Positions 28,677 through 36,696 of a stretch of 36,696 nucleotides of DNA are shown here, piece after piece. A program made the translations under genes and the position numbers. Every line of letters starts with the position of its first letter. The stretch's first letter is position 1. Under the pieces are notes generated by a model, which worked only from the letters and a program-made list of their open reading frames with translations, was not told where the DNA came from and did not search any database. The DNA is from a candidate division CPR2 bacterium GW2011_GWC2_39_10 (GTDB taxonomy: Bacteria > Patescibacteriota > CPR2): the NCBI GenBank assembly GCA_000993275.1, contig LBVV01000005.1, forward strand, positions 1 to 36,696. The letters are read 5' to 3'.

Positions 28677-28806
28677 AAAAAGCAAGCATTATCTAGAGGA
28701 GGAGCCAGGAAACAGAAACCAGTAAACATCTTTGTAATTAATTTGCTTTGAAACCGATAGTTTTTCTAAAACGCTTGTATTTTTTGTTTCCATTTTCATA
28801 ATTAAC

Positions 28807-28902
28807 TGATTCCTGATTCCTGATTCCTGATTCCTGATTCCTGATTCCTGATTCCTGATTCCTGATTCCTGATTCCTGATTCCTGATTCCTGATTCCTGA
28901 TT
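28807..28902. repeat. 13 perfect tandem copies of heptamer TGATTCC plus partial
   Basis: direct count by position. Confidence 0.97.
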
Positions 28903-28938
28903 TTTGTGGGTCAAATATCTTAATAAACAGGATCTATC

Positions 28939-29073
28939 ATGAAACGAACTTACCAGCCGAAAAAAAGAAGAAGATTTAGAGTGCACGGCTTCCTAGAAAG
29001 AATGAGCACAAAAAATGGCCGAAACGTGCTAAAAAGAAGAAGAGCTAAGGGACGAGCCAAAATAACTGTTTAA
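28939..29073 (+). CDS. rpmH: 50S ribosomal protein L34
   Basis: [44 protein letters not shown] (not in the ORF track, read directly). Confidence 0.96.
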
Positions 29074-32650: not shown

Positions 32651-32863
32651 ATGTTTAACGAATTTGAAGTTACAATAAAAGCCCTAAAAAAAGATGAGGC
32701 CGTTCTGCTAACGGAAAAAGGTTTAGAATTTACTTATCCTTTGGTATTACTTCCATCAAAAGTTAAGGAAGGATCTAAAATTTATTTTTCTCTTTCGCGG
32801 GAAAGATTTTCCCGGGCAACCGAATTATTAAATAATCTGCTTTTAGGTAATGAAGAAGATTAA
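32651..32863 (+). CDS. small hypothetical protein
   Basis: 70-aa ORF between ppaC and vanW-like genes, overlapping the next start. Confidence 0.6.
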   Translation: MFNEFEVTIKALKKDEAVLLTEKGLEFTYPLVLLPSKVKEGSKIYFSLSRERFSRATELLNNLLLGNEED

Positions 32864-34562
32864 TTATAAAGACAATTTAAATCTTAATTTTGCTGTCATA
32901 ATTTTTATATTATCTTTGTTGTTTTTAATTGGCACTATTAATAACGGCAACCTAATTTTTAAAAATACTTCGGTGGCCGGCATTAATTTATCCGGAAAAA
33001 ATAAGACGGAAGCAAAAAAAACGCTTCAAGATGCGGTTAAGAATTACGAAGGTTTCAAATTTGGCGACAAAACAATATTACCTCAGGAGGCAGGCGTTAA
33101 TTTTGACGTAGAAAGCACTTTAAATAAAGTTTATTTTTATGGCCGGAATAGTAGCTTGCCGGTTGGTCTTTGGGAAAGAATGGCCGCTAATTTTACCAAA
33201 AGAAACTACGAGTTAGAAACTAAGATCGATGAAAAGCAGTTATCATCTTTTCTTTCTAAAAAAACAGATGATTACAACACTGCTTCCGAGGATTATTCAT
33301 TGGCTTGGGATAACGGTCTAAAGATAAAGCCGGAAATACCGGGGAAAAGGCTGCTTATTACGGACACCAAAGAACAAATGCTGGAAAATGCCAGGTTCTT
33401 AAAAGACGACCAAGCTTTAAAAACAGAAACAGTAACTACAAATAAAAGTGTTAAGGATTTGGAAAGCGCAAACCTTTTTAAGCAGACGGAGTCTTCCATA
33501 ACGGTTGTTCTTGATTCAAGAAAGTGGGAAATAAATCCGGCAACTCTTGCCGAGTGGATTATTTTTGAAAACAGCACTCAAAATGCCGGCCTATCAAGCT
33601 ATATCTGGCCCTTTTTAAAGCCAACTTCTTTTAAACTTTCCCTTGACGATAATAAAATTAATATATTTTTGGAAAAAATCGCAAAAGAGGTTAATATTAC
33701 GCCTCAAAATGCCATGCTGACAATTGTTGATGGAAAAGCGACGGTTTTTGCACCCTCAAGAGATGGATACATGGTAGATGTGGCGGATGGCAATTCTAAA
33801 ATAAAAGATGCTTTTATTGCTGACGATCGAACGGCTAGTTTAAAGGTCAATAAGAAACCGGCCGAAGTTCGCGAGGATAATTTAAATAATTTGGGAATAA
33901 AAGAACTAATTGCTACCGGAACCTCAAATTTTGTAGGGAGCCCTTCTAACAGGGTACATAATGTTAAAAATGGCGCCTCGAAGTTTAGCGGTCTAATCAT
34001 TGATCCGGGCCAGATTTTTTCCTTTAATAAACTTGTTGGGGCCGTCGATGCCTCCACCGGATATGTGGAAGGGTTGGTTATTAAGGACTTTAAAACCGTG
34101 CCGGAGTACGGTGGCGGCTTGTGTCAGGTATCAACAACAATGTTTAGAACCGCCTTAAATGCCGGATTGCCAATAATAGAGCGCTATCCCCATGCCTATC
34201 CGGTTCAGTATTATAGTCCGGTGGGAACAGATTCCACAGTTTATGATCCGAATCCCGACCTTAAATTTAAAAATGATACAGATGCTCACATTTTAATTCA
34301 ATACAATGTCACCGGCACTATTTTGAAATTCGAATTTTACGGCACAAAGACGGCAAAAACTGTTAAATTTAGCGGCAACGAGGATGGGTCAGCGGCAGTT
34401 GATAGAGCGGAAAATTTAAAGCCAACGATTTTCGATCAGGACAAAAAGGGCAAAGGATCCTTAACCGCGCTTTGGTGGAGATTTATTTACGAAGGAAATA
34501 AGCTGGTAAGACAGGACAAATTTTATTCCGCATACGATTCACCAGATAAATACCCACACTAA
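32850..34562 (+). CDS. VanW family protein with PG-binding (YoaR-like) repeats
   Basis: GQIFSFNKLVGAVDASTGYVEGLVIKDFKTVPEYGGGLCQVSTTMFRTALNAGLPIIERYPHAYPV. Confidence 0.9.
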   Translation: MKKINYKDNLNLNFAVIIFILSLLFLIGTINNGNLIFKNTSVAGINLSGKNKTEAKKTLQDAVKNYEGFKFGDKTILPQEAGVNFDVESTLNKVYFYGRNSSLPVGLWERMAANFTKRNYELETKIDEKQLSSFLSKKTDDYNTASEDYSLAWDNGLKIKPEIPGKRLLITDTKEQMLENARFLKDDQALKTETVTTNKSVKDLESANLFKQTESSITVVLDSRKWEINPATLAEWIIFENSTQNAGLSSYIWPFLKPTSFKLSLDDNKINIFLEKIAKEVNITPQNAMLTIVDGKATVFAPSRDGYMVDVADGNSKIKDAFIADDRTASLKVNKKPAEVREDNLNNLGIKELIATGTSNFVGSPSNRVHNVKNGASKFSGLIIDPGQIFSFNKLVGAVDASTGYVEGLVIKDFKTVPEYGGGLCQVSTTMFRTALNAGLPIIERYPHAYPVQYYSPVGTDSTVYDPNPDLKFKNDTDAHILIQYNVTGTILKFEFYGTKTAKTVKFSGNEDGSAAVDRAENLKPTIFDQDKKGKGSLTALWWRFIYEGNKLVRQDKFYSAYDSPDKYPH

Positions 34563-35465: not shown

Positions 35466-35555
35466 TTTTAAAAGCTCCTTTTTTTAATGATAGGACAAAT
35501 TGTCGTCCTTTCGCAAGATAAATCTTTTAAAAAGGGGGCTTTCCCTTCGTATTTC

Positions 35556-35584
35556 TTGACATTTAAGAGCTAAACGGATAAAAT
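35556..35584 (+). promoter_or_regulatory. sigma70-type promoter of attenuator A
   Basis: TTGACA - 17 nt - TAAAAT. Confidence 0.75.
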
Positions 35585-35591
35585 TCCTTCA

Positions 35592-35648
35592 ATGAAAACA
35601 AGGATCAGCCAGAAATTTTATTACTTTTGGTTTAGCTTGCAAGCCTAG
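35592..35648 (+). CDS. attenuator leader peptide A: MKTRISQKFYYFWFSLQA
   Basis: ATG 7 nt after the -10; aromatic run shared with leader B; followed by terminator. Confidence 0.8.
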   Translation: MKTRISQKFYYFWFSLQA

Positions 35649-35653
35649 AGCGC

Positions 35654-35712
35654 TGTAAGCGGTTTTACATTTAATGTAAGTTAAGGCCGGCCTACAAAGC
35701 GCGGGCTTTTTT
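35654..35712 (+). terminator. attenuator A antiterminator/terminator region
   Basis: TGTAAGCGG can pair with CCGGCCTACA (antiterminator) or AAGGCCGGC with GCGCGGGCTT followed by T-run (terminator). Confidence 0.78.
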
Positions 35713-35830
35713 GGTTGCACATTAATATTATAAATTTTGAATTTGTGGGAGAACGCAAAAGGAGGAATTGTTGCGATCGCGATTGTTAAAGCTAAAAAAG
35801 GCAAACAAATAATATTTAAGGAGTTGTGTT

Positions 35831-36265
35831 ATGAATGCTTTAGATTTACCCAAACAGCGTCAAAATGTTATACAAAGCTGCCTAGATATAAGCGCTGTTG
35901 TTGATTTCGTAGAGAATTACATTAATCCTCAGGTATACTCAGGGATTTTTGTCTGTTTGCAGGAAGCGTGTTCATTTTTTCAGGAAGCCAGAGTTGGCGC
36001 CCAGGTAGTTGAAGGAGCGTCGTTCGGTCTTGGACAAGAGATATTGAGAGTGCTTAAAGGAGGTCAAGCTCAGAAACTACCATCAAAATGTTCCTTAATC
36101 TCGCTAGTTATCATTAAGACCGGCAAATTCTTTAGATCAGTGATTGACCTTGGTATTGTAAATGTCCGCCAGTTTGGACCACCTGAATTGAAAGAAGAAG
36201 AAGTACGGGAATTGGGCGACAAAATCCTCCAGGTGTATAGCAAGTACTTATCTAAAGGGTATTAA
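35831..36265 (+). CDS. hypothetical protein downstream of attenuator A
   Basis: 144-aa ORF with AAGGAG Shine-Dalgarno 8 nt upstream. Confidence 0.65.
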   Translation: MNALDLPKQRQNVIQSCLDISAVVDFVENYINPQVYSGIFVCLQEACSFFQEARVGAQVVEGASFGLGQEILRVLKGGQAQKLPSKCSLISLVIIKTGKFFRSVIDLGIVNVRQFGPPELKEEEVRELGDKILQVYSKYLSKGY

Positions 36266-36305
36266 ACGGCAACCCAGTATCGTATTTGAATTCTTCCACA
36301 CAAAT

Positions 36306-36345
36306 TTCTGGTAGCCCGCGTTATCAACCCTTTGGGCTACCAGAA
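36306..36345. other. 12-bp perfect stem-loop
   Basis: TTCTGGTAGCCC / GGGCTACCAGAA, 16-nt loop, no T-run. Confidence 0.8.
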
Positions 36346-36386
36346 TTATCGTAAAGCGGTTTTAATTTTCAAAATAACAAAGAAGC

Positions 36387-36415
36387 TTGCATTTGGAATG
36401 AAAAATAGCTATTAT
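36387..36415 (+). promoter_or_regulatory. sigma70-type promoter of attenuator B
   Basis: TTGCAT - 17 nt - TATTAT. Confidence 0.7.
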
Positions 36416-36422
36416 GTGCCTA

Positions 36423-36488
36423 ATGAAAAATCATTTAAATCAAAATTTTTATTACTTTTGGTTTAACTTAGAGGCCCCAGGCTTGTAA
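36423..36488 (+). CDS. attenuator leader peptide B: MKNHLNQNFYYFWFNLEAPGL
   Basis: ATG 7 nt after the -10; core FYYFWF identical to leader A. Confidence 0.8.
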   Translation: MKNHLNQNFYYFWFNLEAPGL

Positions 36489-36553
36489 GCGGTTTTTTAT
36501 TTAGTTAATAAAGATCAAGAAAGATAACCCGGCTTACAGGCGCGGGTTTTTTT
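36484..36553 (+). terminator. attenuator B antiterminator/terminator region
   Basis: TGTAAGCGG/CCGGCTTACA antiterminator; AACCCGGC TTACAG GC-G-CGGGTT TTTTT terminator. Confidence 0.82.
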
Positions 36554-36607
36554 GATTCTTTGGTACCTTGGACAATTGGTTGAAATTTTGAAATGGGGGG
36601 ATTTGAG

Positions 36608-36696
36608 ATGTTAAGCGGCAGGGGAAGAAAAACAAGCGCAGAGAAAGCAACGCTTTTATTTGGAGCGTTAAGGAGGTATAGGCTTGCTTTAGAAGA
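36608..36696 (+). CDS. partial ORF downstream of attenuator B (MLSGRGRKTSAEKATLLFGALRRYRLALE...), runs off window
   Basis: ATG after a G-rich stretch; open to window end. Confidence 0.45.
   Translation, partial: MLSGRGRKTSAEKATLLFGALRRYRLALE

Follow-up and report, generated by a model that had tools for sequence, protein, structure and literature searches.

Does the end of this window carry two tandem attenuators that read the supply of aromatic amino acids through a translating ribosome, and, if so, what would they serve in an ultrasmall bacterium that looks unable to make these amino acids? The window (the whole stretch of DNA analysed, 36,696 nt) spans contig C5 completely; the genome to which it belongs measures 1.1 Mb and is 97% complete. 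From the sequence and from thermodynamic modelling, we consider it probable that both elements are trp/phe-type transcription attenuators, mediated by the ribosome, which sense how much charged tRNA-Phe, tRNA-Tyr and tRNA-Trp is available.

The original prediction placed two attenuators about 830 bp apart, each in the order promoter, short ORF, competing helices and U-tailed hairpin. This order was present in both copies, A and B, at a measured spacing of 831 nt, and both leader peptides and their stop codons were read where they had been proposed (coordinates refer to the plus strand unless indicated). Promoter A (TTGACA-17-TAAAAT, 35556..35584) matched the consensus at 11 of 12 positions, with the same spacing in relatives, and was followed by leader ORF A (MKTRISQKFYYFWFSLQA, 35592..35648; ATG at 35592, TAG at 35646-35648). 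Promoter B (TTGCAT-17-TATTAT, 36387..36415) preceded leader ORF B (MKNHLNQNFYYFWFNLEAPGL, 36423..36488; ATG at 36423, TAA at 36486-36488). In both copies the promoter spacer was 17 nt and the ATG lay 7 nt 3′ of the -10 box, so transcription would start on the start codon itself or no more than a few bases away. The mRNAs of A and B thus appear effectively leaderless, a point absent from the original prediction. The same layout recurred in all nine copies described below: a -35 box, a 17-nt spacer, a -10 box and then the start codon 7-8 nt on. In a single copy the ATG was 10 nt from the -10 box, yet an in-frame GTG was 7 nt away.

Such leaders were rare in a 4.4 Mb Markov sequence used as a null. 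The window held two promoter-plus-leaderless-ORF candidates with a 6/6 aromatic stretch, against none of 1008 in the null, where 2/1008 reached 5/6. Among null ORFs of 15-22 codons, 6.6% contained all three aromatic residues, and 0.9% combined all three with a 4/6 aromatic stretch. A scan of all loci for further leaderless aromatic leaders gave only two weak candidates.

The antiterminator arms were located as proposed, with TGTAAGCGG as the 5′ arm in both copies and a CCGGCYTACA-type 3′ arm. In copy A, TGTAAGCGG (segment 2, 35654..35662) began 5 nt after the leader stop, and its partner CCGGCCTACA (segment 3, 35687..35696) overlapped the 5′ arm of the intrinsic terminator (segments 3:4 and a U run, 35683..35715). 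In copy B, TGTAAGCGG (36484..36492) overlapped the stop codon itself, and CCGGCTTACA (36529..36538) formed the 3′ arm; terminator B (36526..36553) followed. Both U-tailed hairpins folded, as a check suggested with the prediction had called for. The bulged G said to be common to the two terminators was found in B, which carried one bulged G and a U run (-11.7 kcal/mol, z -2.5). Terminator A was less regular: the arms quoted for it contain a G.G mismatch, and RNAfold preferred a stem with three unpaired bases at -9.7 kcal/mol. A simple terminator detector returned zero for A and B; since it misses bulged stems, this is no counter-evidence.

These parts suggest the following sequence of events. 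Transcription would begin on the leader start codon or beside it; a ribosome could then load on the leaderless RNA and trail the RNA polymerase. When aromatic amino acids are plentiful, the ribosome would reach the stop codon and cover segment 2 (in the window, TGTAAGCGG), leaving segments 3:4 to fold into the intrinsic terminator. A ribosome stalled on the Phe, Tyr or Trp codons would leave segment 2 free to pair with segment 3. The terminator would be destroyed, and the polymerase would read into one or two small orphan genes. Leader translation, stalling and termination are our inference, as is the idea that the small proteins help an aromatic auxotroph respond to starvation.

The element proved to be shared with relatives. 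A DNA search of 59 relatives found one similar stretch, in a genome of the same family (G002). A covariance model built from A, B and the G002 copy, run on related genomes as had been proposed, matched one copy per genome in six members of a different family within the same class (hereafter the second family), giving nine copies, eight of them distinct, in eight genomes. A second covariance model, run with strict filters over 380 genomes of the phylum, matched class members only; the sample included 364 genomes from beyond the class, and none of these gave a copy. The element was absent from G001, which belongs to the same genus as the window genome, and neither pattern matched the viral contigs searched.

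The aromatic codons, on whose conservation in homologous loci the original prediction was to stand or fall, were present in G002 and in the six second-family genomes. The G002 leader had the core KFNYFYFWF. The second-family leaders (MKREMIQVKYWFTFRA, MKIKMIQTKYWFTYMA, MKRKMIQTKYWFTFKA, found twice, MKRKMIQTNWFTYMA and MKRKMIQNKYWFTCMA) started with GTG in four of six cases and had K(Y)WFT(F/Y/C) or NWFTY cores in widely divergent nucleotide sequence; G007 carried Cys at the last sensor position. Phe, Tyr and Trp all occurred in each of the eight distinct leaders, with 3-6 aromatics within six residues, and the distance from the start to the Trp codon took the values 27, 30, 36 and 42 nt, so that the frame was always kept.

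Pairing was conserved as well. In the antiterminator helix, 89.7% of alignment cells were paired, compared with 35-48% in slid controls, and three pairs had changed on both sides; its covariation score was equalled by 5/500 shuffles, in a small sample and in a test that relatedness inflates. RNAfold also predicted a helix 1:2 in B (CUUA-G-AGGCC / GGCUU-G-UAAG, 36467..36489) as a competitor of the antiterminator, with a counterpart read by eye in G002 and a competing 1:2 helix (ACYUNCA / UGYRGGU) in the second family. In B and the second family this would be the classical three-helix plan. The parts, their order, their conservation, the pairing and the switch geometry are all seen by sequence and comparative computation.

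The claim that a stalled ribosome favours readthrough and a terminating one termination was borne out by a partition-function scan, in which the ribosome was set on one codon after another, with its footprint taken to extend to +12 from the A site, and the RNA 3′ of it was folded. The modelled RNA switched in all eight distinct copies, with P(terminator) of 0.00-0.10 at the last aromatic codon and 0.61-0.99 at the stop. The respective values were 0.00/0.79 for A, 0.00/0.95 for B, 0.00/0.86 for G002, 0.10/0.81 for G011, 0.00/0.61 for G004, 0.08/0.98 for G014, 0.00/0.65 for G012 and 0.00/0.99 for G007. With the upstream sequence shuffled, 0-10 of 200 trials were equally low at the last aromatic codon. 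The contrast held in all eight copies for a footprint edge at +11 to +12, and several copies lost it beyond +13 to +15. Without translation, the equilibrium model favoured readthrough in the window family (P(terminator) 0.00-0.09) and termination in the second family (0.59-0.98). These features of a trp/phe-type attenuator were found together: a short ORF with codons for the sensed residues in nine copies (its translation being predicted), a mutually exclusive antiterminator and intrinsic terminator, and, in the thermodynamic model, a stop codon that leads to the terminator and sensor codons that lead to the antiterminator.

The position of the switch bears on what is sensed. The leader could belong to a true ribosome-stalling attenuator that answers to another signal, either as an arrest peptide for an antibiotic or small molecule or through a general slowdown of translation. 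Stalls at several non-aromatic codons 5′ of the core also favoured readthrough in the model, as this alternative would have it, and nothing known ties the regulated genes to aromatic metabolism. In the second family, however, the flip fell at the codon directly after the aromatic core (in G007, after the Cys that replaces the last aromatic), just past the last aromatic codon; in B and G002 it came two to three codons later than in the second family, and A was noisier. The peptides that flank the core also differ between the families (NFYYFWFNLEAPGL, KFNYFYFWFREPQAL, KYWFTFRA). Because the shared feature is aromatic content of varying number and order, codon sensing fits better than a specific arrest sequence, and we regard another signal as unlikely.

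A less probable alternative, in our view an improbable one, takes the conserved unit for an RNA structure element, be it bound by a protein or ligand or processed, in which the ORF is incidental. The 18-nt core is identical in A and B, synonymous sites included; the two window copies by themselves therefore cannot tell codon conservation from nucleotide conservation, some of which may act at the RNA level, and the hairpin of the three window-family copies takes in the core aromatic codons. A second-family helix joins the MIQ codons to the 2-3 loop and shows a single compensatory change (U-A/A-U). An incidental ORF, however, sits poorly with length changes that preserve the frame, with a start codon that keeps a set distance from the -10 box in almost every copy and with all three aromatics in every leader, compared with 6.6% of null ORFs. 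Moreover, no Rfam family scored above threshold for the element: Phe_leader (RF01859) reached 18.5 bits, below its gathering value of 55, and Trp_leader (RF00513) 15.8 bits, below 41. No T-box was matched at the gathering threshold over the window, nor at E ≤ 10 over 35500-36696. That there is nothing more than a leaky, constitutive terminator separating the promoter from the small genes, and that the competing helix is fortuitous, is scarcely credible, as the pairing survives changes on both sides and the switch is reproduced in 8/8 distinct copies of the model, even though terminator A is modest.

If the elements are aromatic attenuators, they would control small orphan genes. Upstream of A lies a VanW / PG_binding_4 gene (Pfam; 32850..34562), which is also the neighbour in relatives. 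The gene under A (35831..36265) encodes a 144-aa orphan protein with a distant homologue behind the G002 leader (E 5e-7). It had no match over cut-off in Pfam, NCBIfam, PHROGs or PADLOC and none in a protein search of the genome contigs, and its AlphaFold model had a pLDDT of 38.5. Only the 5′ end of the gene under B (36608..36696) lies in the window, where the contig ends. Its apparent continuation is in contig C25, whose end overlaps that of the window contig exactly over 99 nt, and the overlap suggests that the two join. In C25, gene B would be a 125-aa orphan ORF, followed by a 109-aa ORF and tRNA-Asn.

The G002 locus comprised VanW, a 240-aa ORF, the leader, ORFs of 108 and 154 aa and tRNA-Asn. 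In the second family, VanW was followed by the leader, a ~80-aa protein whose residues 4-7 read FCHG, another protein of 70-118 aa and tRNA-Asn, an order intact in four of six loci. The order conserved across families was VanW, attenuator, small orphan genes and tRNA-Asn. None of the small proteins tested had a family above the curated cut-offs in the libraries tried, and homology between those of the two families could not be shown. AlphaFold modelled one second-family protein as three helices (pLDDT 80.3), with no PDB match at E ≤ 0.001. In the other class genomes examined, VanW was followed by other sequence and no leader. At two such loci of another class family (L023 and L025, G003 and G008), the region 3′ of VanW held different small genes and no leader, which suggests a variable-gene site behind VanW.

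Several further observations concern the same region. In the second-family loci (L013-L018), a second overlapping inverted repeat (GGCTATTTTT / AAAAATAGCC, then TTT) is kept just past the terminator, as is a TTTTTGTACCTT block 5′ of gene 1. Group I introns (RF00028) were found at the tRNA-Asn that closes the locus in L018 (minus strand, G007), L026:2269-2850 (G009) and L013:2566-2824 (G011). ORFs resembling GIY-YIG or HNH endonucleases lay close to these introns or within them, and in G007 and G009 the anticodon was interrupted by the intron (GGCTGT^...^TAACC). In the window genome, a partial 5′ copy of tRNA-Asn and a GIY-YIG-like ORF directly precede an intact tRNA-Asn (L064:10030-10350, minus strand) and resemble a remnant or an invader at the same hotspot. 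Elsewhere in the window, an ORF at 28738-28986 (minus strand) carries NQESGIR peptide units in tandem, encoded by a short DNA tandem repeat that adjoins dnaA.

What such a switch could serve depends on the host. Chorismate synthase was absent from 16/16 class genomes and detected in 14/14 controls. The chorismate route to aromatic amino acids should therefore be closed to the class, whose members look like aromatic auxotrophs. The ribosomal protein bL30 was also absent from the class and detected in 13/14 controls, which we take to fit Patescibacteria (CPR). Without chorismate synthase, the switch cannot be a control of chorismate-derived aromatic synthesis, as trpL and pheL are; a role in biosynthetic feedback is not supported, and sensing of the outside aromatic supply by an auxotroph is the likely one. 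The regulated genes may have a role in aromatic amino-acid uptake or use, or the small proteins might act in starvation or in a detached state. We tentatively offer, as a doubtful idea, that the three-amino-acid leaderless attenuator of an epibiont or scavenger reports that the host or food is gone, and that the small proteins reshape the cell state (e.g. dormancy or a detached stage), not metabolism. A 2024 perspective described the mechanisms by which Patescibacteria differentiate between host-attached and starved free states as completely unknown, with translation regulation likely to be key (PMC11665869). For this question of state control, the element provides a concrete candidate sensor with named target genes.

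The original prediction invoked the logic of trpL/pheL attenuation. The switch design supports it; the physiological role differs, as the regulated genes are not aromatic biosynthesis genes. Like the enteric trpL, pheL and pheM (pheST) leaders, those described here have a short ORF rich in the sensed residues, a mutually exclusive antiterminator and intrinsic terminator, and a stop codon whose position lets a terminating ribosome mask the antiterminator arm. They differ in their leaderless start, in holding all three aromatics in one leader, in their orphan small-protein targets, in organisms without chorismate synthase and in the two tandem copies at one locus. Judging by the title of the report, the polycysteine leader ORFs of mycobacteria (Canestrari et al. 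2020, doi 10.1111/mmi.14498; title cited in PMC9094748 and PMC13236596) are likewise leaderless short ORFs that act as amino-acid-responsive attenuators; they involve cysteine instead of aromatics and belong to actinobacteria. The trp, trpS, leuS and ilvB attenuators predicted computationally in actinobacteria (PMC1262725) also combine a leader peptide and a terminator outside proteobacteria, but control biosynthesis or aminoacyl-tRNA synthetase genes. The putative Trp-rich trpL leaders of Chlamydia (PMC3937554) were likewise proposed as sensors in host-dependent bacteria; they sit in trp operons, whereas no aromatic pathway gene lies downstream here.

A literature search that covered few subscription papers, and is weak evidence for that reason, gave no account of an attenuator in Patescibacteria or in the candidate phyla radiation. 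Together with the lack of an Rfam family, this agrees with the suggestion that the tandem composite aromatic sensor may be undescribed, and the element would carry leaderless leader-peptide attenuation into a lineage for which that search turned up no report of it. Attenuators that sense amino acids usually provide feedback on biosynthesis; in this case one has been retained, twice over, in organisms that lack the pathway and before fast-evolving orphan genes, which suggests that attenuation has been reused as a pure nutrient sensor. The type of switch is classical; a setting with no biosynthesis genes, and with translation predicted to start right at the 5′ end of the RNA, appears undescribed. 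The mechanism itself is known; what appears new is the combination of a leaderless start, a three-aromatic sensor, an auxotrophic host and orphan targets.
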